From positions 1-61,873 of the forward strand of contig CAIXRH010000348.1 in assembly GCA_903921785.1 (NCBI GenBank): a stretch of 61,873 bases of DNA, written 5' to 3'. Shown here one piece after another: positions 18,873 to 58,305 of the stretch. A model generated the notes under the pieces. It searched no databases and was not told where the DNA came from. It saw only the letters and a list, made by a program, of their open reading frames with translations. How positions within the stretch are numbered: position 1 is the stretch's first letter; each line of letters opens with the position of its first letter. Position numbers and translations under genes: made by a program. This DNA is from an uncultured Pseudomonadota bacterium (GTDB lineage Bacteria > Myxococcota_A > UBA796 > SXON01).

Positions 18873-19361
18873 GTGACGTGGTTGCTCTGGGCCTCGCTGG
18901 CGCATGCTTCCGCCGCCCAGGCGGTCGAGGTCCAGGTGCTTTTGCGGGATGCCCCGAGGGGCACCGCCCCGCTCGTCGCCACCACCTGGCTCGGGGAAGA
19001 ACGTACGCTCACCCTGGTGGACGACGGCTCGGTCCCCGGGGACAAGCCGGGGGACGAGGTCTACGTCGGCCGGTGGACCGGCGAGCCCGTGCGCGTGCTG
19101 CCCGTCCGCATCCTCCTCACCTCCGCCTCCGGCGCGCAGACGGTTGCGGCGTTCAACGAGGTGCTCGACGACGGCGAGAACGACCTCTCCTACGTGGTGG
19201 AGCTGGGCGATCCGGTGTCGGTCCGCCGGGTGGCGTCCGCGTGGTCGCAGCGCTCGGCCGAGGTCGCGGAGCTCGCGCGCACCGGGGCCTCCATCGGCTG
19301 GGCCGCGCTGGTGCTCGGGTACGTGGCGTGGTTGGTGGGCCGGAGCCCGGGGCCGCGATGA
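18873..19361 (+). CDS. Ig-like domain/TM protein, first gene of module A
   Basis: The 162-residue protein has a signal peptide (MTWLLWASLAHASA) and a beta-rich domain. That domain carries VDDGSVPGDKPGDEVYVGRW, the DDG...GDxVYxG motif of choice-of-anchor/Ig-like domains. A single C-terminal membrane helix follows near 137-157. It matches the N-terminal parts of the proteins at 21007, 39804 and 42638, but lacks their cytosolic domain. The stop overlaps the GT-C-like start by 4 bp. Start is GTG. Confidence 0.7.
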   Translation: MTWLLWASLAHASAAQAVEVQVLLRDAPRGTAPLVATTWLGEERTLTLVDDGSVPGDKPGDEVYVGRWTGEPVRVLPVRILLTSASGAQTVAAFNEVLDDGENDLSYVVELGDPVSVRRVASAWSQRSAEVAELARTGASIGWAALVLGYVAWLVGRSPGPR

Positions 19362-21007
19362 GCTGGCGCGGGTGGATGACGCCGCTGGTCTTCCTGCTCC
19401 TCGCAGCGGTGTGGACGTGGCCCGCGCCGATCACCGCCGAGCTCCTCGGGCGCCGCGCCGACGCCCTGGGCACCGTCTGGTTCGTCTCCGCCGCCGCGCG
19501 GCTCCTCCCCGGGCTCCACGACGGCCTCACCGGCTGGCCGCTCGGCGCAGACTACACCCGCCCCGACAGCTGGACGATGCTCCTTGTCGGCCCCTTGAGC
19601 GCCCTCCTCGGCGCCCCGAGGGTGGTCGCGCTCGTGGCGTTCCTCGGCGTCACCGCCTCGGCCTGGGCCGCCGAGACCTTCGCGCGCTCCATCGGCGCCC
19701 GGGCGCCCTGGTCGCTCGTGGCCGGGATGGCCTACGCGTTCTCCGGCCTCGGCAGCACCGCCTTCATCGAGGGCTACCCCTACCACCTCGCCGATCCCTG
19801 GCTCCCGCTGTTCGGCGCCGCGTGGCTCCGCGCGGTGGACGCTGACGGGCGCCCCCGGGACGGCCTGGCCGCCGCCGCCCTCTTCGCCCTCGCGCTCGGC
19901 ACCTCCGCCTGGCACGGACTGGCCGCCGCGATCCTCGGGATCGGGCTGCTCGCGGCCGCGCGCGCCCAGGGAGTCGTGCGGCCCCGCCCGGTGCTCGCCG
20001 CCGCGACCGCCGTGGGCGTCCTCGCCCTCGCTTACGCCGCCGCGTTCTTCTCGAACGCCCCGGCCTCGGAGGTGGCGTCGAGCGGCCTCGGCGGCCTCTC
20101 CACCCTCAGCGATCGGCTCCTCCTCCACACCGCCCCCGGCCCCGCCGTGGACATCGACGGGCGCGGGCAGACCGCCTGGTTCTCCGCGGTGATGCTCGCC
20201 GGGCTGGCGGTGGCTCCGGTGCTCGTGGGGCGGGACTGGCGGGTACGCGCACTCGGCCTCACGGCGCTGGTCGCGCTCGGGCTCGCGCTGGTGCCGCTGC
20301 CGTGGGCGAGCATGGCCCAGTGGGTGCCCACGTCCCGCGCCGGCGCGCTCGCCGCGTTGCAGGCGGCGTTCGGGCGGTTCCCCGAGCGGCTCGGCTGGGC
20401 GTGGCTCGCCGCGGGCGGGGTGGTGGCCGCGAGGGCCCTCACCGAGCTGGAGCGGATCGCCGGGCGGTGGACGTGGCCGCTGCTCGCCGCAGCCGCCCTC
20501 GAGCCCTTCGTGGCGCTCCGCCTGCCGCAACGTCAGGCCGTGAGCCCCGGCGGCGCGCCCTCGGCCTACGGCGCCAGCGCCGGCGCCGTCTTCGACCTCT
20601 GGCCCGAAGACCTCGCCCGCGACCCGGGCTGGGACCTCCGCGTCACCAACACCGACTGCTTCTACCAGGCCGCCCACGGGCGCCCGATCGCCGACCTCTG
20701 CCTGCTCGTCCCCGGGCAGCAGAGCCCCCGCGCCCGCCTCGGCGAGTGGGTCACCGATGCGCTGCTCGACGGGGACGCGAGCAGCGTCGAAGCCCGGCTC
20801 TCGGCGTTCGGCTTCGCCACGATCGCCTGGCACCCCGACGTCTTCCGGCCCTCCACCCGGTCTCGCCTCGCCGAGGCGCTCGCGCGGGTCGACGGCGCCC
20901 CGGCCGAGTCCACCGACGCGGGGGACCATGTCGTCGCCTTCGCGCTCGCTTCCCCGGCGGAGGGCGTGGCCGGCGCCGAGGCGTACGCGGCCTGGGGGGC
21001 GCCGTGA
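19358..21007 (+). CDS. GT-C-like polytopic membrane protein, module A
   Basis: The 549-residue protein begins MSWRGWMTPLVFLLLAAVW. About ten hydrophobic segments and a C-terminal soluble domain of about 170 residues follow. The first periplasmic loop contains GWPLGADYTRPDSW, in the place where GT-C transferases hold acidic catalytic residues. Glycosyl transfer on the periplasmic face is inferred. Both ends overlap neighbouring genes (4 bp and 1 bp). The order Ig/TM, GT-C, Ig/TM/cytosolic is repeated on the other strand at 43564-39804. Confidence 0.7.
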   Translation: MSWRGWMTPLVFLLLAAVWTWPAPITAELLGRRADALGTVWFVSAAARLLPGLHDGLTGWPLGADYTRPDSWTMLLVGPLSALLGAPRVVALVAFLGVTASAWAAETFARSIGARAPWSLVAGMAYAFSGLGSTAFIEGYPYHLADPWLPLFGAAWLRAVDADGRPRDGLAAAALFALALGTSAWHGLAAAILGIGLLAAARAQGVVRPRPVLAAATAVGVLALAYAAAFFSNAPASEVASSGLGGLSTLSDRLLLHTAPGPAVDIDGRGQTAWFSAVMLAGLAVAPVLVGRDWRVRALGLTALVALGLALVPLPWASMAQWVPTSRAGALAALQAAFGRFPERLGWAWLAAGGVVAARALTELERIAGRWTWPLLAAAALEPFVALRLPQRQAVSPGGAPSAYGASAGAVFDLWPEDLARDPGWDLRVTNTDCFYQAAHGRPIADLCLLVPGQQSPRARLGEWVTDALLDGDASSVEARLSAFGFATIAWHPDVFRPSTRSRLAEALARVDGAPAESTDAGDHVVAFALASPAEGVAGAEAYAAWGAP

Positions 21008-22101
21008 TGCTCCTCTGGGTCGCCTCCGCCCTGGCGGGCAGCTTCATCGTGGCGATCCGCGAAGATGGCGGCGCGTTCTCGGGCGCCGTGCCCCGCGTCA
21101 CCATCACCGACGCGGCCGGCAACGCCGTCCGTATCGACATGCAGGACGGTGGAACGACCGTCGACAAACGCGCGGGAGACGCCGTCTGGACCGGCGACAG
21201 CGGCTCGGTCGGCGCCGGCCCCTACGCGCTCCTCATCACCGACGGCGGCGATGTCCGGGTGTGGAAGGGGTCCTTCGCCGCCACCGGCAGCGATCCGGTG
21301 GTGCTGCGCGTCTCCGCCCAGACGGGCGGGGTGCTCACGGAGCTCGGCGAGCACGACGTGTCGGTGGGCGACGCGCCGCCGGTCTCCCCGACCAGCGAGG
21401 CCCCCTCGGCCAACCCCGCGCCCCCCGGCGAGCCGATGCCCGACGGGACCGGCGCCCCAGCGGGAGCGCCGCAGCCCTCCGGCGACGCCGGGCAGGGCGG
21501 CGGTGGCGCACCGAACGCCGGACCTGGGGACGCGGGCCCGAGCGGCGGGGTCAGCGCGGTGACCACGAGCGCCGGCGACTTCCTGGAGGAGCTGCTCAGC
21601 TCCGACCCCTTCCAGGCGCTCGGCGCGGGCCCCCGGGCTGGCGCGTGGGCGCTGGTAATCGGCGTCTTCGCCTGGGTGCTCGCCGGTTCGCGCCGCTTCA
21701 GCGCCGCGGCGATCGACGCCCTCCCGGGCCCGCTTCCCCCCGTCGCCGTCCGCGGTGTCGTGCCGATGGACGGCGAATGGGACGCCTTCGTCCGCACCCT
21801 CGCCGGCCCCTTCCGTGTCATCCTGGTCGGCGCGGCGAACCCCGGCGTCGTCCCCGGCGGAACCGTCTTCCCCCTGGGCACCGGCCGCGTCCCGGTGGAC
21901 GACGTGGTCGCCCTGCACGCCCACCTCACCCCGACCGGCCCCCCGATCGCGGTGGTGATCGTCGGCGGCCTCGCCGGTGAAGGCGGGCCCGGCGATCAGG
22001 CGGCCCTGGAGGACCTCGGCAAACGCCTCCCCAAAGAGGCCGTCGCCTACGTCTTCGCCAGCGCCGCTTCGCGACGCTCCAGCTCCGCCACCGCGAGCTG
22101 A
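21007..22101 (+). CDS. Ig-like/TM/cytosolic-domain protein, module A
   Basis: The 364-residue protein has a short signal peptide (MLLWVASALAGS) and an Ig-like domain with MQDGGTTVDKRAGDAVWTG. A Pro/Gly/Ala linker (about 120-195) and a membrane helix (about 217-235) follow. A cytosolic domain of about 120 residues has three strand-like stretches: FRVILVGAANPG, PIAVVIVGGLAGE and LPKEAVAYVFA. The same pattern is seen in the proteins at 39804 and 42638. I know no family name for it. Its last 55 bp overlap the end of the opposite gene. Confidence 0.7.
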   Translation: MLLWVASALAGSFIVAIREDGGAFSGAVPRVTITDAAGNAVRIDMQDGGTTVDKRAGDAVWTGDSGSVGAGPYALLITDGGDVRVWKGSFAATGSDPVVLRVSAQTGGVLTELGEHDVSVGDAPPVSPTSEAPSANPAPPGEPMPDGTGAPAGAPQPSGDAGQGGGGAPNAGPGDAGPSGGVSAVTTSAGDFLEELLSSDPFQALGAGPRAGAWALVIGVFAWVLAGSRRFSAAAIDALPGPLPPVAVRGVVPMDGEWDAFVRTLAGPFRVILVGAANPGVVPGGTVFPLGTGRVPVDDVVALHAHLTPTGPPIAVVIVGGLAGEGGPGDQAALEDLGKRLPKEAVAYVFASAASRRSSSATAS

Positions 22102-23009
22102 GCCAGTCGCGGCACCACGCCGCAAGCCAGGATCACCGACCCCAACGCCGCCGCCGACTCCGCGGCCACCGGCCCCACGCCTGCCACCACCGCGAGGACG
22201 GGCAGCAGCGCACGCGGAGCGGCGCGCCGAAGGGCCACCACCGCCACGGCGGCGAGCACCACGATTGGGGCGGACAACGCTGCGAAGCCTATCGGGTCGG
22301 CCGCGCGGAGCGGGAGCGCAGGCAGGGCCAGGAGCGTGGCGCCGACGCCGATCGCCACCAGCCGAGGGAACGTCGCCCGCGCGCCAACCTCGCGCGCGCC
22401 AACGCCCGCGGTGATCGCCAGGAGCACGACCAACGTGGGCACTTCCGCGGGCGCCACGGCCGCGATGAAGCCGGCCGCCCCCGCCGCCCCCGCCAAAATC
22501 CCCGGCCCGCCCCGGAGGGACTTCAGCGCCAGCCCCCACGCCAGCGGGAGCGCGGCGAGCGCGGCGAGCGTGGCGGTGTCCCCATCGGTCAGCGCCGGCG
22601 AGACCACCAACTCCCAGAGCAGGCCACCGACCAACGCCGCATATTCGTCCGTCCACCACGAGCCCACGAGCCAGGCGGCCGAAAACCCCGCGGCGAGCAC
22701 CCACAACGTCGCGGTGACGGCGGGCCAGGAGCCATGCAGCCAGATCAGCGGAAGCGCGAGCACAGCGTCGAGCGGGTAGCCGCCCAGGCCGGTGGCTCCG
22801 GCCGCGTCCGCCAGGGCGCCGACGCCGACGCCGGCTTGAGCGACGATGCGGAAGCGGGTCGCGGCGGCGCCCGCGGCGTCGGCCCAGCGCGCCACGCCGA
22901 GGACGAACGCGCCGAAGGCGAGGATGCCCGCGCCGATCCCGAGCTGCGTCACCCGCGGGCGGACCAGCGCCGGCACGAGTCGGAAGCGGGGCGGCTCCAG
23001 GGAGGACAT
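22047..23009 (-). CDS. Short GT-C-like membrane protein
   Basis: The 320-residue protein has about eight hydrophobic segments. Order and spacing resemble the N-terminal half of the GT-C-like protein at 19358: a WLHGSWPAV stretch, a GSWWTDEYAALVGGLLW loop, then ALTDGDTATLAALAALPLAW against its SGLGSTAF/LADPWLPLFGAAW. No soluble C-terminal domain is present. It may be a shortened paralogue or a separate membrane partner. It converges on the module A protein with a 55-bp tail overlap. Confidence 0.55.
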   Translation of the reverse strand: MSSLEPPRFRLVPALVRPRVTQLGIGAGILAFGAFVLGVARWADAAGAAATRFRIVAQAGVGVGALADAAGATGLGGYPLDAVLALPLIWLHGSWPAVTATLWVLAAGFSAAWLVGSWWTDEYAALVGGLLWELVVSPALTDGDTATLAALAALPLAWGLALKSLRGGPGILAGAAGAAGFIAAVAPAEVPTLVVLLAITAGVGAREVGARATFPRLVAIGVGATLLALPALPLRAADPIGFAALSAPIVVLAAVAVVALRRAAPRALLPVLAVVAGVGPVAAESAAALGSVILACGVVPRLAQLAVAELERREAALAKT

Positions 23010-33128: not shown

Positions 33129-34418
33129 CTACTCCCAGTGGTCCGGGTGGTCGGGGTAGCCGAGCGCCTGGAGCATCTCGGCCACGCGCGGCGTGGCACA
33201 GAGCGGCCCGAGCATGTCGATGCGACGGAACCAGCGGCGATGCCGCGGTTGTTCCGTCGCCATCACCACCGGGAGCCCGGCGGTGAGGGTGTGCTCCAGC
33301 TCGTCATGCACCGGCACCCCGAGCCAGTCGCTGAGCGCGCCCATCGCCTCGGCCTGCCGCGCGTTCGGGCCGATCACGTCCTCGAAGCGGAGCTGGAAGC
33401 GGTCGGCCGCGTTGTCGGCGAGCACCGCGCGGTGGGCCGAGCTCCACTGGTAGGCGCAGACCTCTTCGAGCGACGCGTCGGTCCAGTCGGCCCAGCCGGG
33501 GGGACGGTCGAACTTCCACCAATGGTCGCCGCCGGGGACCACGTCGCTGTAGCCGCCGATGCGCAGCCCCTCCACGCGGTGTGAGTGGAACCCCGGAAAC
33601 CGCCAGCCGTCGTAGAGCCCGTTGATGCTCGCGGCGGCGTTGCGCGTGAGGTGGAGGACGCGGATGCGCGCGTTGGGAAAGAGCCGGCGGAGGAAGCCGA
33701 GGCGGTACACGTTTCCCGGGGTCTTCACCACCAGCGGGCGGGTGGCGAGCTCCTCCGCCGTGGCGTGGTGCCAGGGCAGCGTGAGCACGAAGGGCGGCTC
33801 CTCGACCGGCGAGCCGGGCACGAACGGGGTGTCCGGGCCGAGGTCCGCGGCGAGGCGGCGGTCGAAGTCGTAGGCGCCAGGGTGGAAGGCGGGCCAACGG
33901 GCGCGCCAGCGGGCGAAGAGGTGCGCGTAGAACACCTGCGCGTCGGCGAAGTGGCCGGGCGCCCACCCGGCCGTGGTGACGAGCTCCGCGAGAACGGCGC
34001 GGACATCGTCGGCGATCTGGGCGCCGACCACCGGGAGCTCGGGCCACTGGAGGCAGAGGCGGGCGGCGATCTCGGCGGCGAACGCCTCCACCGCGGCGGG
34101 GCCGTCGAGCCGATCGGTGGGCTGGCCGCAGTCGGCGCCGAGGGCGGCGCCGAGGCCGGCGGGGATCGGGTGGTCGGCGGGGACGGAGTCGTCGGCGTCG
34201 CCGGCGCAGCCGAAGAGCCGGAGCTGCGGGTTCACTTCGGCGCGGAAGTGGAGCAGGGAGCGGCTGCGGCGGAGCACCTCGGCGAAGATGGAGCTGCCGC
34301 CGCGGGAGCTCGACGCGATGACCACCACCTCGCGCGCGGCCTGCGCCACGTCGAGCGCGGGGAGGCCCGCTCGGAGCGCGGCGACGCGCTCACGCACGGA
34401 CGCGACGTCAGCGGCCAC
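33129..34418 (-). CDS. Sulfotransferase-fold protein (first type)
   Basis: The 429-residue protein has a PAPS 5'-phosphosulfate loop-like ASSSRGGSSIFAEVL (about 36-50) and a 3'-phosphate motif region RVLHLTRNAAASINGLY. Expected reaction: transfer of sulfate from PAPS to a carbohydrate or other acceptor. The loop reads SSSRGGS rather than the common TxRSGS, so the match is moderate. It overlaps the preceding sulfotransferase gene by 11 bp. Confidence 0.75.
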   Translation of the reverse strand: MAADVASVRERVAALRAGLPALDVAQAAREVVVIASSSRGGSSIFAEVLRRSRSLLHFRAEVNPQLRLFGCAGDADDSVPADHPIPAGLGAALGADCGQPTDRLDGPAAVEAFAAEIAARLCLQWPELPVVGAQIADDVRAVLAELVTTAGWAPGHFADAQVFYAHLFARWRARWPAFHPGAYDFDRRLAADLGPDTPFVPGSPVEEPPFVLTLPWHHATAEELATRPLVVKTPGNVYRLGFLRRLFPNARIRVLHLTRNAAASINGLYDGWRFPGFHSHRVEGLRIGGYSDVVPGGDHWWKFDRPPGWADWTDASLEEVCAYQWSSAHRAVLADNAADRFQLRFEDVIGPNARQAEAMGALSDWLGVPVHDELEHTLTAGLPVVMATEQPRHRRWFRRIDMLGPLCATPRVAEMLQALGYPDHPDHWE

Positions 34419-35424
34419 GAAGCGCCAACCGGAGCTTGATGCGCTGCATCAGCCAGAACCGCCGCCAGCGCTGGCCCACGTTCTTGTCCTTCCGCAGCGA
34501 CCGCCACTCCACCTTGAGCCAGAGCAGATCGTCCACGAAGCCCCACTTCACCTCGCGCCACCAGGCGGCGAGGCCGGTGGGCGGCGCGCGCCGCGGCGCG
34601 TCGAGCGGGTAGCCGAGCGTCTCGAGCATGCCGCCCGCGATCTCCTCGACGGTGGCGATGTCCTCGGCCGTGAGGTCCTTGCGGTACCGCGCGAGCCGGT
34701 CCTTCTTCATCGGCGCGGCGGTGTTCTTCCAGGACTCGGAGAGCGAGGCCGACTTCACCGCTTCGCCCTTCTCGAACCACCGGAGCATGTCGGGCTCGAA
34801 AGGCTCGCCGAGGAATTCGCAGATGCGGCGCACCTCCGCCTCCGGCTCGGCCACCAGCGACTCGTACATCACCCGCAAGACCCCGCCGCCCGGCTCGGCA
34901 GCGAGGCCGCGCGACTGCTGCTCCGTCCAGAGGCGGGCAGCGTTTGCAGGGTGGAAGGCTGAAAAGACGGACTCGCGCGCGGACGCGGCGACGTCGCGCG
35001 CGTCGCGGATGAGCCAGAGGAACCGCGCGTCGGGGAATTCGCTGCGAACGAGGTCGACGTGGTCGACCATGAAGGTGCTCTTGCAGCCCCAGCGCTCCTT
35101 GCCGACGTGGGCGAGCAGCGCCTCGTGCAGCGCCACGTAGACCCCGAAGACCGAGCGGCGGCGCGCGCGCGAGACCACGTCCTCCGCGGCGGGGATCCAC
35201 TCCCAGGGGTGGATGTGCTCCCGAACCAACGAGAGCACGTCGCCGACGAGCGCCGCGAACCGCGCGTCCTCGGAGAGGTCGCCGTACTTGGCCTCCAAGG
35301 CGCCGAAGTAGCGCATCACGTGCGGCGGGTGCGGCACGAGGATGTGCGCATGGGCGTTGAGGATCAGCCGCAGCAGGTTGGAGCCGGACCGCTCGGTGCC
35401 GATGATGAAGATGGGGGCAGACAC
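34408..35424 (-). CDS. Sulfotransferase family protein (second type)
   Basis: The 338-residue enzyme has a clear PAPS-binding loop IIGTERSGSNLLRLIL near the N-terminus and the 3'-phosphate motif FLWLIRDARDVAASARES. The C-terminal helix region is Arg/Lys/Trp-rich (WRSLRKDKNVGQRWRRFW) and may touch the membrane. It likely sulfates a cell-surface glycan or lipid. It lies upstream of, and overlapping, a second sulfotransferase-like gene, so both probably act on the same product. Confidence 0.88.
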   Translation of the reverse strand: MSAPIFIIGTERSGSNLLRLILNAHAHILVPHPPHVMRYFGALEAKYGDLSEDARFAALVGDVLSLVREHIHPWEWIPAAEDVVSRARRRSVFGVYVALHEALLAHVGKERWGCKSTFMVDHVDLVRSEFPDARFLWLIRDARDVAASARESVFSAFHPANAARLWTEQQSRGLAAEPGGGVLRVMYESLVAEPEAEVRRICEFLGEPFEPDMLRWFEKGEAVKSASLSESWKNTAAPMKKDRLARYRKDLTAEDIATVEEIAGGMLETLGYPLDAPRRAPPTGLAAWWREVKWGFVDDLLWLKVEWRSLRKDKNVGQRWRRFWLMQRIKLRLALRGR

Positions 35425-38290: not shown

Positions 38291-39799
38291 CTAACGCTTC
38301 CCGAGGACCAATACCAGCGGCGCATCGCGGGAGTGGGTCTCCGCCACCACGCGGCCGTCGGCGCCCATCGCCTCGACCCGCACGGCGGGGTGGCCCGCGG
38401 GCACTGCCAGGGAGAACGAACGCTCCCCACGGAGCACCACCGCCGCGAGCTTCTCGTCGGTGAGGCTGCGGACGGTCACCTCCACGGGCTCCGGCGGCGC
38501 GTCCACCGTGCCGGCGACGGTCCAAGCGGGGGAGGTGTCGACGGGGGCGGCGCCCGCGGTCGCAGCGCTCCCCGTCGCGGCGCCCGGAGTGGTCCCGTCG
38601 CGGCCGCGGTCGGCAGCCCCGGCCCCCGAGCTCGCCGCCAACCCCGACGCCCCGCCGGGAAACAGGTTCACCTGCGGCGACATCGCCCCCGGGGACGCCC
38701 CGCGGCTGTCGGGAGCGGTGTCCACCACCCCCGACGCGTCGAACGCCTCGGCGCGCCCGAGCAGCCGCTCGGTCGGCCAGCGGGCGGCGCGGAGCGACGC
38801 CACGATCGCGTCGGCGACGACGGCGTTTCCGGCGGCGGAAGGGTGCAGGTCGTCGAGGAACAGGGCGTCCGGTCCGGCCGTGACGGCGGCGGCCTGGAAG
38901 GCCTCGAGGGTGTGCACGACCACCGTGCCATGCCACGTCGCGACCGCCGCCTGGGCCCCGAAGTACGGCGCGCGCACTTCCTCCCCCGAGAGGTCGCCCC
39001 GCGCCATGTCCCGGTTCGTCGGCTGCAGAAAGACCACCCCCGCCCCATGCTCCCGCGCCGCCCTCACGATCGCGTCGAGGTTCTCCGCGAACCGCGCCGG
39101 CGGCACCCGCCGCACGCCCTCCGCGGGGAACTCGCTGTGCCGCGTCCAGGTGACGAGGTGTGCGCCCGCGCCGCCCCGCGCCCGGTCCACCCAGCCGCCG
39201 ACGAGCCGGAAGAACGCGGATTGTCCGAGCAGCGACCCGCCGTACACCCGCTGCGTGCGCAAAAGGTCTTCGTCCTTGAAGTGGTCGAAGTTGTAGTCGC
39301 TCCAGACGTTGGCCACGACCACGAGCGACGGCTCCAGGCCCCAACCCACCTCGTCGAGCAACAGCCGCGTCTGCTCGGTGGAGTAGCCGGGCACCGCGGC
39401 GTTGACGGTGTCCGCGTCGATCCCGGCGCCCCGCAGCGCCCGACCGAGCAGGACCGCCGGAGTGTCGTCGTCGGCGACGCCGTGGCCGAAAAAGCTGGAA
39501 TCGCCGGTGATCATCACCCGTTCGCGGCCCCGAGGCCGCGGCACCCGGGGCTTCTCCCCACGGAGGCCGAGGTCGTTGATCGTGGCCTTGGCGCCGGCGT
39601 TGTTGCGGATGCCCGTGCCCATGCCCCAGAGGCGGGTCGGGTGGCCGACCATGATCACGTCGCCCGGGTCGCGGCCCTGCCAGCCCGGGACGACCGGGTC
39701 GAGGAAGCGCGCGTAGCCCTCGCCAAGGAGCAGGAACGCGGCGACCGCGATCAGGGCGCCGGTGAGGCGGAAGCCCAGGCTCGGCCGCCGACGCGCCAC
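38291..39799 (-). CDS. Membrane-anchored SGNH/GDSL hydrolase
   Basis: The 502-residue protein has one N-terminal membrane helix (11-27) and a periplasmic SGNH domain. Block I is MITGDSSFFGHG with Ser101, the Gly block VPGYSTEQ, the Asn block NVWSDYN and block V DDLHPSAAGN with Asp317/His319. Residues about 350-430 are a Ser/Ala/Gly linker, followed by a beta-rich C-terminal domain. Relatives remove or add acetyl groups on glycans (AlgX/PatB-type). It ends module B, 4 bp after the Ig/TM/cytosolic gene, so glycan acyl chemistry is likely. Confidence 0.85.
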   Translation of the reverse strand: MARRRPSLGFRLTGALIAVAAFLLLGEGYARFLDPVVPGWQGRDPGDVIMVGHPTRLWGMGTGIRNNAGAKATINDLGLRGEKPRVPRPRGRERVMITGDSSFFGHGVADDDTPAVLLGRALRGAGIDADTVNAAVPGYSTEQTRLLLDEVGWGLEPSLVVVANVWSDYNFDHFKDEDLLRTQRVYGGSLLGQSAFFRLVGGWVDRARGGAGAHLVTWTRHSEFPAEGVRRVPPARFAENLDAIVRAAREHGAGVVFLQPTNRDMARGDLSGEEVRAPYFGAQAAVATWHGTVVVHTLEAFQAAAVTAGPDALFLDDLHPSAAGNAVVADAIVASLRAARWPTERLLGRAEAFDASGVVDTAPDSRGASPGAMSPQVNLFPGGASGLAASSGAGAADRGRDGTTPGAATGSAATAGAAPVDTSPAWTVAGTVDAPPEPVEVTVRSLTDEKLAAVVLRGERSFSLAVPAGHPAVRVEAMGADGRVVAETHSRDAPLVLVLGKR

Positions 39800-43564: not shown

Positions 43565-43942
43565 CTACGCCCGCCGGCTCATCGCCCAGGCCAACCAGGC
43601 GATGCCGAGCATCTGGCCGAGGGTGGGCTTGTCGATCGGCGGGGCATGGCGGAGGTCGGCCGCCGGGTACATGCGGAAAGCGTTGCGGAGCCGCTGCTGT
43701 GGCCCTTCCGGGATCCCCCAGAAGCTCAGCCCCGCGCCGTGCTCCCGCGCGACCGCCGAGATGCTCCCCGAGGCGAGCTTCTCGTCCCGCACCACGTCGT
43801 GGACGTCCTGGAGAAAACGCACCGGGACCCGCCCCTTCACGATCAGCACCTCCCCTCCCCGGATCGACAGCTTGAACAGCGTACGCTGGCTCAAGAACCA
43901 GAAGACGCCGAGGGCCAGGGCGGAGAGGACGAGGATCGTCAT
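43565..43942 (-). CDS. DUF3634-like small membrane protein
   Basis: The 125-residue protein has an N-terminal membrane helix (MTILVLSALALGVFWFLS). A cytosolic stretch follows with LFKLSIRGGEVLIVKGRVPVRFLQDV and IPEGPQQRLRNAFRMYP, the pattern of DUF3634. The function of that family is not known. It is the first gene of module B, directly joined to the Ig/TM gene. A 115-bp spacer to the divergent GH5-like gene should contain promoters. Confidence 0.75.
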   Translation of the reverse strand: MTILVLSALALGVFWFLSQRTLFKLSIRGGEVLIVKGRVPVRFLQDVHDVVRDEKLASGSISAVAREHGAGLSFWGIPEGPQQRLRNAFRMYPAADLRHAPPIDKPTLGQMLGIAWLAWAMSRRA

Positions 43943-52208: not shown

Positions 52209-54587
52209 TCAAGCGGTTTCGCGCGCAGCCCCACGCCGCCGCCTGCCGATCCAGGCCGCCAGCGGCACCCCGATCGTCCCGAGCAGCGCGACGATCGCCG
52301 CGCCGAGGAGCCAGCGGAGGAGGCCGGGATCGTAGCGGAAGACGACCGTGTGGCCGCCGGCCGATCCGAGGTCGACGGCGCGGTAGATCACGTCGGCCTG
52401 ACGGATGGGCGTCGGCACGCCGTCCACCGTGGCCGTCCAGCCGGGGTAGTTGGTGTCGGCCAGCACCAGGGTGCCGGGCCCCTCGGCCCGCAGCGTCACC
52501 TCGGTGTCCCGGTACGCCACCACCTCGGCGGCGAGGGCGTGGGCCGGGCCGCCGTCCACGCAGGCGAGCGCACGGGAGCCGTCGCCCTCCAGGACCACGC
52601 TCCGGTCCGGGTCGGCGGCGAGGGTGAGCCGGAAGGCCTCCTCCACATCGCCCGCCCGCTGCGCACAGGCGACGACGCGGGCGCGCGGGAGCGCCCCGGG
52701 ATCCTCGTAGACCTGCCAGGCGCCACGAACCAAGGGAATCAACCCCGGCAGCTCGTGCACGGCGGCGATCCATCGCACCGCCAACCGCCGCGAGATCTCC
52801 GGGTGGTCGAGCCACCGCCGGACCTTGGCGGTGCCCTTGTCGCCGACGTCCAGGCCGCCGGAAGCGAGCAGGGCGTCGTTGCGGACCAGGAGGAGCGGCG
52901 AGGGCACGATCACATCGCTGGTGCCCAGCGGGAGGCCGAGGCTGGCGGAGAGGAGCGCGCCGTCGAGCTCGCTGGGGATACGACGGTCGAGCACGGTGGT
53001 GCGCGAGCCGCCAAGCTCGGTCATCACCGGCGCGAGCCAAGGCGGCCGGGCGTCCACCTCCGCCGCGGGGACGGTCGGGTGGTAGTCGTGGCCGAAGGCC
53101 AGGAGGTCCGCGGCGACAAGGGCGGCGAGCATCCGGGGGCGGCGCACGAAGAGGGCCGTGGCGAGCAGGAGCGCCAACGGGAGGAGCACGCGGGACGACC
53201 GAGGCGAGGTGCTCTCGCGGAGGTCCGCGAGGATGTGCCGCACCTTCGCGGGGATGGCCGAGGCCACCTCAGGATCCGGGGCGGGGAGCGCGGCGGCGGC
53301 GAGCACGGAGGGGAGCGCCGGGGGCGGCGGGAGGTCGAGCTTCTCGCGGAAGTGATGGTCGAACCAGCCACCGATCTCCGCCGCCCGGGTGCGTAGCCCG
53401 AGGTTGGCGAAGCCGGTCGTGAGCGAGAAGAGCGCGGCGATCCAGACGATCCGTCGCCGGGCCACGCCGGGGCGGGCGTGCCGGCGCAGCACGTCGACCC
53501 CGTGGGCCGCGAGCACGGCCACCGCGGCGGTGACCACCAGCGCGAACCGAGCCGGGAACCGGAAGAACCCGAAGCCGGGCACGTGGCGGAGCAGCGCCCA
53601 GGCGGGCCCGCCGAGCATCAAGACCAGCCCCACCACCCCCACGGCGGCCCAGAACCGCGAGCGCCGCAGCCCGGCGGCCGCGAGGATCGCTGCCGGGACG
53701 CCGACATACACGCAGGTCTCCCACGCGTCCACGCCCGAGCCCCAGTACTGCCCGGCGCGGTGGAAGTAGGTCTCGGTCACGTCGGCGGGGCGCTCGAAGC
53801 CGAACGCCTTCGGGAGCACGAAGTTGATCAACTCCTGCATCGGCATCGCGCCGATCGAGGCGAACGCCGCCCCGACCCCGCCCTCCCGCATCGAGAACCG
53901 GCTGAGCTCCAGGCTCGCCGCGAGCTGCGGCGCGGCGATGACCACGCCCGCGGCGCCGCCGAGCGCCCACCGCAGCAGGTCGCGGCCACCGAGCCGGACG
54001 AGCGCGTGGGCGCCCAGCATCAACCCCGCGAACGCCGCGGCCTGCGGGTGCCCGGCGAGCCCGAGCATGCCCACGCCCAGCGCCGTCAACCACGTGCGCC
54101 CGGTGACGGTGGCGAAGAGCACCCACCCCACCCAGGCGAGGCCGTTCTGCATCCCCAGGTAGAGCGCGTGGGAGACGAAGAAGCCGGAGAACGCCCACAC
54201 CAGCCCGCCGACCAGCGGCGCTGCTCCCCGGAGTCGCAGCGCCCGAAGGTAGGCCCACATCCCCATCGCGGCGAAGATGTGGTGGCCGAGCACGCTCCAG
54301 TCCAGCGCGAGCCCGTCGGGCAAAAGCAGGAAGAGCAGCATCGTCGGCGGGTAGAGGAAGCCGCCTTCTCCCTCGGCGAGCAGCGGGAAGCCGTTGCCGG
54401 CGCCGCTCGCCCACCAGGGCACCTCCCCGGATGCCCACCTCTGAGCCGCCCAAGACCGCCAGGGCAGGTGGTGGTGGCGGAGGTCGTGGTAGCCGAAAAC
54501 GCCGGTGCCCACGGCCGCGGAGGGCGCCAGCAGCACCGCCACCAGGGCGAAGATCACCAGGGGGAACAGCCAGTCCCGGCGCTTCAC
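52209..54587 (-). CDS. YfhO-family membrane protein (GT-C-like)
   Basis: The 792-residue protein has about thirteen membrane segments. The N-terminal loop GYHDLRHHHLPWRSW, FPLLAEGEGGFLYPP and the C-terminal YPGWTATVDGVPTPI are hallmarks of YfhO. In Bacillus, YfhO is needed for glycosylation of lipoteichoic acid, which supports glycosyl transfer on the outer face of the membrane. Its start overlaps the sulfatase gene stop by 4 bp. It ends a three-gene operon. Confidence 0.88.
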   Translation of the reverse strand: MKRRDWLFPLVIFALVAVLLAPSAAVGTGVFGYHDLRHHHLPWRSWAAQRWASGEVPWWASGAGNGFPLLAEGEGGFLYPPTMLLFLLLPDGLALDWSVLGHHIFAAMGMWAYLRALRLRGAAPLVGGLVWAFSGFFVSHALYLGMQNGLAWVGWVLFATVTGRTWLTALGVGMLGLAGHPQAAAFAGLMLGAHALVRLGGRDLLRWALGGAAGVVIAAPQLAASLELSRFSMREGGVGAAFASIGAMPMQELINFVLPKAFGFERPADVTETYFHRAGQYWGSGVDAWETCVYVGVPAAILAAAGLRRSRFWAAVGVVGLVLMLGGPAWALLRHVPGFGFFRFPARFALVVTAAVAVLAAHGVDVLRRHARPGVARRRIVWIAALFSLTTGFANLGLRTRAAEIGGWFDHHFREKLDLPPPPALPSVLAAAALPAPDPEVASAIPAKVRHILADLRESTSPRSSRVLLPLALLLATALFVRRPRMLAALVAADLLAFGHDYHPTVPAAEVDARPPWLAPVMTELGGSRTTVLDRRIPSELDGALLSASLGLPLGTSDVIVPSPLLLVRNDALLASGGLDVGDKGTAKVRRWLDHPEISRRLAVRWIAAVHELPGLIPLVRGAWQVYEDPGALPRARVVACAQRAGDVEEAFRLTLAADPDRSVVLEGDGSRALACVDGGPAHALAAEVVAYRDTEVTLRAEGPGTLVLADTNYPGWTATVDGVPTPIRQADVIYRAVDLGSAGGHTVVFRYDPGLLRWLLGAAIVALLGTIGVPLAAWIGRRRRGAARETA

Positions 54588-56569
54588 TTGGGCGGTGCTC
54601 CGGACGAGGGCGGCGCGGGGGGAACGGCCGGGGCCTCGGGCGTGACCGGAGCCGCCGGCGGAGCGCCGGCCGGCGCGAGCTCCGGCGCCGCCAACGTGGC
54701 GTCCGGGTCGGTGTACCCGAGCGCTTCCAGCATCTCGGCCGTGGCCCCCTCCGGCGCCGAGTGGTCCACCCCCCGCTTGAGCCCCTGCACGCTCTCGTGC
54801 GCCTGCCGCACCGCCTTCTCCTGGGTGGGCGCGAGGTCGTGGAGCTCGTGGGGATCGTCGGGGAGCGAGTAGAGCTCAGGGGCGCCGGCGTCGGTCTCCA
54901 GGTACTTCACGCCGTTCGGGGAGCGGATCCCGTAGAGCCAGGCGCTGTCGGTGCGGCCGAGGAGGAACTGCGGCGAGCCGGGCTGCTGGGCGCCGCCGAG
55001 GCGATCCTGCAGCGCCTGCGAGCGCGTACCGACCAGCTTCGGCACCCCCGCCGCCTCCAAAAGGGTGTTCGCAACGTCCATCTCGGTGACCTGGTCGTCG
55101 TTGCGCGCTCCCGGCTCCCACCCCATGCGGGTCTGCCAGAGCAGGAGCGGCACCCGGAGCACGTCGTCGTACAGCCCGTGATGGTTGAAGTGGATGCCGT
55201 GTTCGCCGAGGCTCTCGCCGTGGTCGCCGACAGCGAGGACAGCCGCTTGATCCAGGCGATGACGAGCACGCAGCCCGTCGAGGAGCACGCCGATCTGGGC
55301 GTCGGTGAAGTGGACCTCGGCGGCGTACTGGCGCTTGAGCCCCTCCACCTCGGCGTCGCTGTAGGCGTAGCCGGGCTCCTTCGCGAGGATCGCCCGGTGG
55401 TCCACCTCGGGCCCCGGCTCGCCGTGGAGGTCGTAGGGCGAGTGGGGATCGAAGAGGTGCACCCAGAGGAAGATCGGCTGCTCGGGAGGCACGGTGTCCA
55501 CCCAGGCCAGCGCGCGGGCGACGGTGGCGTCGCCGCGGCGTTCGAGGAGCGCCGGCCAGTCGGCGGGGTCGCCGTAACGAAGCAGGAGCCGGAGGCCGAG
55601 CCACCCCGCGCGGAATTCAGCGATGCCCCGGAAGCGGGGGGCGAAGTCGTCGTCGTAGACCTCAAACCCCTGATCGAGGCCCACGGAGGAGTCCAGCGCG
55701 AAGGAGCTGACGAAGGCGCCGGTACGCCACCCGACGGCCTGGAACTGTTCGGCGACGGTCTGCTCGCGGAGGGAGAGCGCGCGGCCGTTCTGCACGACGC
55801 CGGTGTGGCGGGGGTGCTGCCCGGTGAGCATCGCCGAGTGGCTCGGGGCTGTCTCGGGCAGCGGGGTGATCGCCGCGTCGAAGGCGGCGCCCTCCCGCGC
55901 GAGCCGGTCGAGGTTGGGGGTGGCGGTGGCGCTGCCGTAGGTGCCGAGGGCATCGCGACGCAGCGTATCCACGGAGATCAGCACCACGTTGGTGGCCTGG
56001 GGGGGCGGCGGGTTCGTCGGCGGCCGATCCTCCTGGCCCACGAGGACGCTGAGGCCCACGAGCGCGAGCGCCCCGAACGCGGCCGGGATGCGGAAGCCGA
56101 TGCGCGGGGTGAGCCCGATGAACTCCCGACGGTACGCGAAGCCCGAGAGCAGGAAGCCCATGAACGACGTGCTCGCGAGCACCACGCTCGATCCGACGAC
56201 GTTCTTGAGGTCCCCCCGCCGCGCCATCTCGGCGACCAGCGGGAGGAGGGCGAAGGCGGTGAGCAGCGTCCAGGCGGCGCCGAAGCCCCGCTGGTAGCGG
56301 CGCCAGAGGGGCGTCCACCCACGCATCCGCCAGGCGATCACCCCGCCCACGAGGCCGGCGGCGAAGGCGAGGAGCGAGTCCGCCACGACGGCGCCGAGGG
56401 TGAGCTCGGCCCGCTCCAGCCCCGTGAGCAGCAGGCGCGAGCGCCAGCCGACGATCAGGCCCTCCAGGCCGCCGGCCAGCGCGCCGACGGCCGCCACCTG
56501 CCCCGCGATGCGGAGGGGGACGCGCCCCTCGGGGACCGGGGGAACCTCGAAGGTCTCGTCGTCGTTCAC
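54584..56569 (-). CDS. Membrane-anchored sulfatase-fold hydrolase/transferase 1
   Basis: The 661-residue protein has four or five N-terminal membrane helices and a periplasmic alkaline-phosphatase-superfamily domain. Metal ligands are in VVLISVDTLRRDALG and AVGDHGESLGEHG. The nucleophile site reads ETAPSHSAMLTG, with Thr where type I sulfatases have Cys or Ser, and His instead of the Arg of CxPxR. Phospho-transferases of the LtaS/EptA type use Thr. The C-terminus is Pro/Ala-rich. It overlaps both neighbours by 4 bp. Confidence 0.85.
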   Translation of the reverse strand: MNDDETFEVPPVPEGRVPLRIAGQVAAVGALAGGLEGLIVGWRSRLLLTGLERAELTLGAVVADSLLAFAAGLVGGVIAWRMRGWTPLWRRYQRGFGAAWTLLTAFALLPLVAEMARRGDLKNVVGSSVVLASTSFMGFLLSGFAYRREFIGLTPRIGFRIPAAFGALALVGLSVLVGQEDRPPTNPPPPQATNVVLISVDTLRRDALGTYGSATATPNLDRLAREGAAFDAAITPLPETAPSHSAMLTGQHPRHTGVVQNGRALSLREQTVAEQFQAVGWRTGAFVSSFALDSSVGLDQGFEVYDDDFAPRFRGIAEFRAGWLGLRLLLRYGDPADWPALLERRGDATVARALAWVDTVPPEQPIFLWVHLFDPHSPYDLHGEPGPEVDHRAILAKEPGYAYSDAEVEGLKRQYAAEVHFTDAQIGVLLDGLRARHRLDQAAVLAVGDHGESLGEHGIHFNHHGLYDDVLRVPLLLWQTRMGWEPGARNDDQVTEMDVANTLLEAAGVPKLVGTRSQALQDRLGGAQQPGSPQFLLGRTDSAWLYGIRSPNGVKYLETDAGAPELYSLPDDPHELHDLAPTQEKAVRQAHESVQGLKRGVDHSAPEGATAEMLEALGYTDPDATLAAPELAPAGAPPAAPVTPEAPAVPPAPPSSGAPPK

Positions 56570-58305
56570 GGCGTTTCGTGCTCCAGGTAGCCGAGCGCTT
56601 CCATCGCCGCCCGCGTCTCCGCGTCGTCTTCAGCGGCGACGCTGGCCGTTCCCCCGGAGAGGAGCTTCCGCAGCAGGTCCACCCGTACGGCGGGGGCGAC
56701 CTGCGGGGAGAGCTCCCCCGGGTCGGCCGCGAGGTCGAAGAACAGCGCCTTCGGGGCGGCGCCCGCCGCGTCCTTGAGGATGAGCTTGCTGCCCGCGCCG
56801 CGGAGGGCGTGGTCCACCGGGGGGGTGGCGACGAAGCGCGCGGCGGTGGTGGAGGAGACCACCGGCGTCTCGCGGCAGCCCTTTCCGCTGAGCTCGGGCA
56901 CGCGCGAGACCCCGTCGAACGTGACGCCGTCGGGGGCGGCGACCCCCGTGAGCTCGCGGATCGTCGGCGCCACGTCCACCCCACCGACCTGGCAGTCCAG
57001 CACCACGCCCGCGCCCACGTGCCCCGGCCAACGCACCACCAGGGGCACGCGCAGCGAAGGATCGTAGAGATCGTCGCCGTGGTCGAAGAGATACCCGTGC
57101 TCGGTGAGGCTCTCGCCGTGGTCAGCGGTGACGACGACGATGGTGTCGTCGAGGCGGTCGCCGAGGGCGGCGAGCACGCGCCCAACCGCCGCGTCCACGT
57201 CCTGGACCTCGGCGTCGTAGGCGCGGGAGAGCCAGTCGGTGGAGGTGACGGCGCGGTCGCGGGCGGGCCAGTAGGGCGGCAGCGTGAGCGCGGCGCCGTC
57301 CGTGGGCGGGGCGCCGAGGGCCGCCTCGTCGCGCGGATGGTAGGGTCCGTGTGCGTCGTAGAAGTGCACGAAGGCGAAGAAACGTTCGTCGCGGTGGTCG
57401 CCGAGCCAACGTTCGGCGTGGGCGAGCACCCGATCGGCGCTCCGCTCGCGCAACGCGTGCTCCTTGAGCGCCACCTGATCCCAGGCCTTCACCAGGGAGA
57501 GCGACTCTGCGCCGGGCCAGGCGCCGAAGTCGTCGTCCCACACGTCCATGCCTTGCCCCCACCCGTACTTGCCGTGGAGTGGAAAGCCCGCCACGAAGCC
57601 GGCGGTGACCCAGCCGGCGGCGCGGAGGTCCTTCCACACCAGCGGACGGTCGCCGAGGGCGGTGCCATTGCTGACCACGCCCGAACGGAAAGGCGCGACG
57701 CCGGTGAGCATCGCCAGGTGCGACGGCTCGGTGATCGGCGCCGCGGCGATCGCCTGGGTGAAGCTGGTCCCCTCGCGGACGAGGCGCGCCCAGACCGGCT
57801 TGTCCCCGACGTGATCCGCCCGCGTGGTGTCCATGCTGACGACGAGCACGCTCGGGCCGCCGCCCTTCGCCCCGTGCACCGACTGCCCCCGCCCGCCGGC
57901 CACCACGAGCGCGGCCGCCCCCCAGATCGCGAGCCGGGACACCGTGAGCCACCGGGAGACGACGGCCCCGAGCGCCCCACCGATCACGAACGCCGCCGGG
58001 ATGCCGAGAAAAACCCTGGGATCGCGCAGCGACTCGTTGAGCGCGTGATCGTAGCGCCACCACACGGCGGCGTGGAGCGCGGCAAGCGCCGCCGTCGTGA
58101 ACATCCGCCACCGCGGGGCCTGCCGCGCGAGCGTGGCGATCGCGGCCGCGCCACCGGCGGCGAGCACGCCGAGGCTCACCGAGAGCGCCACGAAGGCCAG
58201 GGATTGTGCGGCGCCGAAGCCCCGGAGCGGCGACGCGCGGACCGCCGCCTCGAGCGCGCCTGCGGCCACGCCCACCCCGATCACGAACCCGACGTCCCTG
58301 CGCAC
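56566..58305 (-). CDS. Membrane-anchored sulfatase-fold hydrolase/transferase 2
   Basis: The 579-residue protein has four or five N-terminal membrane helices, then the periplasmic domain. It shows VLVVSMDTTRADHVG, ITEPSHLAMLTG (Thr at the nucleophile position), FVHFYDAHGPYHP and VVTADHGESLTEHGYLFDHG. It is a paralogue of the following gene. Both end in an EALGY-type helix. First gene of the sulfatase-sulfatase-YfhO operon. Confidence 0.87.
   Translation of the reverse strand: MRRDVGFVIGVGVAAGALEAAVRASPLRGFGAAQSLAFVALSVSLGVLAAGGAAAIATLARQAPRWRMFTTAALAALHAAVWWRYDHALNESLRDPRVFLGIPAAFVIGGALGAVVSRWLTVSRLAIWGAAALVVAGGRGQSVHGAKGGGPSVLVVSMDTTRADHVGDKPVWARLVREGTSFTQAIAAAPITEPSHLAMLTGVAPFRSGVVSNGTALGDRPLVWKDLRAAGWVTAGFVAGFPLHGKYGWGQGMDVWDDDFGAWPGAESLSLVKAWDQVALKEHALRERSADRVLAHAERWLGDHRDERFFAFVHFYDAHGPYHPRDEAALGAPPTDGAALTLPPYWPARDRAVTSTDWLSRAYDAEVQDVDAAVGRVLAALGDRLDDTIVVVTADHGESLTEHGYLFDHGDDLYDPSLRVPLVVRWPGHVGAGVVLDCQVGGVDVAPTIRELTGVAAPDGVTFDGVSRVPELSGKGCRETPVVSSTTAARFVATPPVDHALRGAGSKLILKDAAGAAPKALFFDLAADPGELSPQVAPAVRVDLLRKLLSGGTASVAAEDDAETRAAMEALGYLEHETP

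Follow-up and report, generated by a model that had tools for sequence, protein, structure and literature searches.

Most known bacterial GT-C glycosyltransferases are single chains, some of them fused to a carbohydrate-binding domain. In OST/STT3 and PIG-M/PIG-X, the GT-C catalytic subunit is joined by small lumenal single-span partners. GT136, EmbA-C, and AftD are GT-C enzymes with carbohydrate-binding modules (CBMs) in cis (PMC11127046), and in GT-CA enzymes the catalytic Asp sits at the tip of juxtamembrane helix 1 (PMC12041299). Outside the GT-C enzymes, AlgF of alginate acetylation has two β-sandwich domains and binds the SGNH protein AlgJ and AlgX, but not polymannuronate (PMC10641220). 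BcsE of E. coli cellulose secretion contains a catalytically incompetent P-loop fold, NTPase*, along with REC*/GGDEF* domains, and is recruited to the membrane via BcsF (PMC11470070).

The window, a stretch of 61,873 nucleotides, contains a gene trio, IgA-GTC1-IgB, to which these systems are the nearest known. Like GT136 (Citrobacter ORF12) of three-component pentofuranose transfer, it combines a predicted GT-CA transferase with a periplasmic Ig-like, CBM-like domain (PMC11127046). However, the CBM of GT136 lies within one protein, whereas the trio usually has two separate single-span subunits, one with a cytosolic domain, whose genes flank that of the GT-C. The mycobacterial arabinosyltransferases AftD, AftA, AftB, and EmbA-C provide the nearest solved GT-C folds, with roughly 15% of structurally aligned residues identical; CBMs are present in Emb and AftD, with no matching arrangement shown. 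The resemblance to OST/STT3 and PIG-M/PIG-X is one of layout only, with no sequence match found. AlgF-AlgJ likewise joins a β-sandwich mediator to a membrane SGNH protein, but AlgF lacks the cytosolic domain of IgB and no sequence match to it was found. BcsE depends on BcsF for recruitment, whereas IgB is anchored by a membrane helix of its own and bears an Ig ectodomain. Hence GT-C enzymes with an Ig-like CBM are known in cis, while the papers and libraries consulted gave no description of a GT-C with paired single-span Ig subunits from a family that also serves SGNH enzymes and has a dead RecA-like cytosolic domain, and literature searches returned no paper on the trio. The features discussed are as follows.

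18873-19361, + strand: IgA1, 162 aa, GTG start; leader, periplasmic Ig-like (CBM-like) domain, one membrane helix.
19358-21007, + strand: GTC1, 549 aa; predicted GT-CA-fold glycosyltransferase with a C-terminal periplasmic domain.
21007-22101, + strand: IgB1, 364 aa; leader, Ig-like domain, Pro/Gly-rich linker, membrane helix, cytosolic degenerate RecA-like domain.
22047-23009, - strand: short GT-C-like polytopic protein, convergent with IgB1 and overlapping its end.
38291-39799, - strand: SGNHa, membrane-anchored GDSL/SGNH hydrolase; conserved direct partner of IgB2.
40958-39804, - strand: IgB2, 384 aa; Ig-like domain, Gly-rich linker, membrane helix, cytosolic degenerate RecA-like domain.
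42653-40971, - strand: GTC2, 560 aa; putative member of a second GT-C family.
43564-42638, - strand: 'IgA2', 308 aa; IgB-family member with Ig domain, membrane helix, and cytosolic domain.
43565-43942, - strand: DUF3634 protein, directly upstream of module 2.

An earlier note on this DNA had described six genes in two modules, and these are borne out by coordinates, codon composition, and gene calling. Module 1 (IgA1-GTC1-IgB1, 18873-22101) has overlaps of 4 and 1 bp and module 2 has a 16-bp overlap and a 12-bp gap; all six genes show coding-type codon composition and each was picked by a simple gene caller. Each of the four small proteins begins with a leader, as the note had it, and carries a D(D/G)G...GDxx(W/Y/F)xG-type loop followed further on by a hydrophobic helix. 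Their homology extends beyond this motif. IgA and IgB are related over the Ig domain with an E-value of 2.7e-12, which weakens to 3.3e-5 when the motif is masked; the motif carries most, yet not all, of the signal. Homology restricted to the motif is ruled out for IgB1, IgB2, and IgA2 by whole-length matches that include the cytosolic domain (IgA2 with IgB2, E = 8e-18; IgB2 with IgB1, E = 3e-13). IgA1 has no cytosolic domain.

The note's further claim, that one module is present twice, held for the layout but not for the parts. Module 2 is IgB-GTC2-IgB because IgA2 is a full IgB-family protein with the cytosolic domain. GTC1 and GTC2 have no detectable sequence relation (hhalign probability 0.5%), so the same architecture was built twice; this and the IgB membership of IgA2 rule out one duplicated module. 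A DNA search of the window's own genome found no second copy of module 1. GTC2 belongs to another GT-C family and is a facultative member of its module. Ig partners stand beside GTC2 homologues only in genomes G046, G048, and G000; other GTC2 homologues lie near glmU-like genes and elsewhere, and in G041 the IgA2 and IgB2 genes are adjacent with no GTC2 between them. IgB is followed directly by an SGNH gene in 10 regions, with an overlap of 1-4 bp in four, which makes the SGNH hydrolase the commoner partner of IgB2. SGNHa scores 46.4 bits against PF13472, above the gathering score of 32.9. A GT2 gene abuts one GTC2 homologue (L094). Another GTC2 branch adjoins a glmU-like gene, often with a response-regulator-like gene, and has no Ig partners (L069, L075, L091, L093, L095, L099, L108, L124).

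Conservation was assessed in 63 genomes of one order, from which 100 regions were taken, their genes called and labelled by profiles; all sequence evidence comes from MAGs. GTC1 homologues are present in 37 of these genomes, as are GTC2 homologues. IgA lies directly upstream in 37 of 43 confident GTC1 gene calls (one gene being counted twice, in L122 and L163), and 23 of those 37 pairs have the exact 4-bp overlap seen in the window. The remaining six calls were not scored as paired, four being in fused frames and two at a contig edge or next to an uncalled upstream gene. IgB is also directly downstream in 15 of the 43 calls. It is less constant than IgA, as 27 GTC1 calls are without a scored downstream IgB. 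Viewed from the partner, 46 of the 56 IgA-profile matches in the 63 genomes (E ≤ 1e-10) are immediately 5' of a GTC1 homologue and three more are the C-terminal Ig domain of a fusion. IgA occurs in families f1, f2, f4, f5, and f6 of the order and is absent from f3, the distribution of IgB being nearly equal, and one genome of the same class outside the order also has the IgA-GTC1 pair (L165). The trees of the partners mirror each other (r 0.92, 0/5000 permutations), although shared ancestry alone could give that. Module 1 is a conserved unit, and the pairing with GT-C genes that had been proposed from one genome holds across genomes, as does the description of two dedicated Ig-like membrane partners.

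In some genomes the trio is a single protein. Uninterrupted Ig-GTC1-Ig frames are found in L083 (G026, 897 aa), L159 (G060), L160 (G061), and L161 (G062), the sequence of the last containing ambiguous bases. Ig-GTC1 fusions with a further C-terminal helix occur in L120, L163, and L164. The triple fusions belong to families f4 and f6 and the L120 fusion to f2. The number and order of helices indicate that both Ig domains of the fusions face the periplasm. Fusion of otherwise separate genes is strong, though indirect, evidence that their products may form a physical complex. Most genomes encode these parts as separate co-translated subunits and a few as one fused protein, which makes the subunit roles separable by genetics and offers a natural single-chain form for structural work.

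The L083 fusion was modelled from alignment A4 (42 sequences; pLDDT 80.6, pTM 0.82), and the fold of IgA1 was taken from its homologous part. A mixed alignment of single Ig proteins and the fusion (A5) put the Ig proteins on the GT-C and was discarded. The ten best Foldseek matches of the fusion model are all GT-C enzymes: AftD (E = 5e-7), yeast and human STT3 (6e-5), AftA (1e-3), PglB (1e-3), and ArnT (2e-3). These support the GT-C nature of GTC1 and predict that it has a GT-CA glycosyltransferase fold. Near-invariant residues of GTC1 are D35, R68, D70, E138, and FPxR at 341-344. D35 (D223 of the fusion) is Asp in 25 of 26 sequences and starts a helix (223-237) after TM1, a position that in the model matches the catalytic Asp of GT-CA enzymes. 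On this reading GTC1 would carry out glycosyl transfer from a lipid-linked donor. In GTC2, D50, D57, H79, and R80 are invariant.

The earlier view that these proteins match no named family also stood. Pfam and NCBIfam hold no family for GTC1, IgA1, IgB1, or IgB2, and members of the wider families did no better. GTC1 gave no match to PMT_2 (PF13231), with one of 26 relatives at E = 0.028, and its profile matched nothing among PDB sequences; GTC2 reaches 24 bits against PMT_2, below the gathering score of 26.1 (E = 5e-5). The Ig profiles found only chance-level matches among PDB sequences. Across the families and PDB sequences searched, no module protein matched a characterised enzyme. Pfam has no model of the IgA, GTC1, and IgB families, which would be new to it.

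Structural comparison was more informative for the Ig-like proteins. Their Ig domains match CBM20/CBM41 structures with TMt 0.5-0.67 and have the β-sandwich shape of CBM20/41/48 (8x8k, TMt 0.67; 2j71, 0.54-0.62). The IgB2 model (pLDDT 84, pTM 0.52) comprises a CBM/prealbumin-like Ig domain, a membrane helix, and a cytosolic domain, whose relative placement is unreliable given this pTM. The cytosolic domain matches RadA, KaiC, Elp4-6, and the NTPase* of BcsE (Foldseek E = 2e-4). It has no conserved Walker A: the pattern appears in only 4 of 45 sequences, three times at residues 81-84 inside the Ig domain and once at residue 243 of 471. The model thus predicts a catalytically dead RecA-like domain resembling that of BcsE.

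The neighbourhood of the Ig genes is recurrent. Within four genes of an Ig protein there is GTC1 in 29 genomes, a second GT-C in 22, SGNH in 16, and a sulfatase-superfamily gene in eight. Three genomes (G041, G046, and G048) have both modules and these neighbours on one contig within about 20 kb, and keep the tail-to-tail overlap of the short GT-C-like gene with IgB1 (L070, L072, L074). These recurrent neighbours and their clustering argue for a glycan-decoration locus. In comparison with three-component Gtr/GT136 glycosylation, no polyprenyl-phosphate-sugar synthase was recognised beside module 1 or 2 and no flippase beside module 1; GtrA (PF04138), the sole class searched genome-wide, was not found. 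Near the IgB-SGNH pair, at 33129-35424 on the - strand, lies a sulfotransferase gene together with another gene of weak sulfotransferase likeness; L181 also has a sulfotransferase, and L182 a gene similar to the second. Three overlapping genes at 52209-58305 on the - strand encode a polytopic protein with weak likeness to YfhO and two membrane proteins that contain sulfatase/phosphodiesterase domains.

The reading favoured here, at a probability of roughly two in three, is that the locus encodes a periplasm-facing inner-membrane glycan-decoration complex in which GT-C and SGNH enzymes share one Ig-like adaptor family. Module 1 would form an inner-membrane glycosyltransferase complex whose GTC1, working at the periplasmic face, transfers a sugar from a polyprenyl-phosphate carrier to a glycan. 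IgA and IgB would be its partner subunits, each with a periplasmic β-sandwich (CBM/prealbumin-like) domain near the active site that may hold the acceptor or scaffold neighbouring enzymes, while the dead RecA-like domain of IgB, which lies in the cytosol, would link the complex with a signal or partner there. In module 2 the same type of adaptor would serve an SGNH hydrolase and, in a few genomes, a different GT-C. Use of an IgB-type adaptor by both modules suggests a glycan-decoration platform with several enzymes on one adaptor family. The neighbours suit the role in envelope glycan decoration that had been proposed earlier, which is likely. A more tentative and rather doubtful extension is that IgB-type proteins are general transmembrane adaptors, the Ig ectodomain docking on periplasmic glycan-modifying enzymes with unrelated folds, GT-C or SGNH, and the dead RecA-like domain giving control from the cytosol. 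If true, envelope glycan modification would be under a hitherto undescribed form of inside-out control.

The main choice within this reading concerns what the Ig domains do, and here a rival that is compatible with the rest of it comes a little short of even odds: the Ig proteins may be pure protein-protein scaffolds, their CBM likeness reflecting a shared β-sandwich fold only. Members of the IgB family are partnered by GT-C and by SGNH enzymes, which are unrelated to each other, and the IgB2 Ig domain also matches the C-terminal domain of AlgF (6d10, TMt 0.52), itself a binder of AlgJ and AlgX and not of the polymer (PMC10641220). Conservation in the aligned sequences reveals no obvious surface aromatic pair for binding, so glycan binding is weakly suggested; in the IgA Ig domain only positions 64 and 107 are mostly aromatic, and these may be core residues. 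Conversely, acceptor glycan is bound by Ig-like CBMs in GT-C enzymes of known function (PMC11127046), and CBMs rank first among single-domain matches to the Ig domain of the fusion. The acceptor could also be a protein, with the trio acting as a PMT/OST-like enzyme and the Ig subunits recruiting substrates. STT3, PglB, and Pmt structures are among the fold matches, GTC2 has its weak PMT_2 match, and eukaryotic OST and PIG-M also need lumenal partner subunits. However, the GT-C fold itself does not decide the acceptor, the best fold match is a polysaccharide arabinosyltransferase, and the SGNH, sulfatase-type, and further GT-C neighbours suit glycan modification, making this alternative unlikely.

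A very improbable alternative is that the GT-C proteins are no longer catalytic and serve as flippases of lipid-glycan, as channels, or in export. They are polytopic and clustered with envelope genes with no adjacent donor synthase, but the GT-CA fold, the near-universal Asp at the catalytic position, and the lack of any transporter among the leading Foldseek matches oppose this. The 'channel' and 'export' of the earlier note are not supported, as the model is that of a GT-CA transferase with nothing pointing to a channel. Scarcely any weight falls on the pairing being operon inheritance within one lineage by proteins that do not act together. In its favour, the families are confined to one order and one genome of the same class; against it, gene fusion occurred in more than one family, many genera keep the pair, paralogous copies in a single genome keep it too, and most pairs have the 4-bp overlap.

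Several occurrences of these families lie outside the common arrangement. Two genomes of one genus (L177, L178) have lone IgA genes with no GT-C, next to genes resembling a transporter and a peptidase, and one region (L196) has three IgB-type genes plus IgA and GTC1. A contig search returned six relatives, five titled Deltaproteobacteria bacterium and one Klebsiella pneumoniae. The latter, a MAG (L200, CAMBIK010000185.1), encodes a GTC1 66% identical to that of the window, and its title looks mislabelled.
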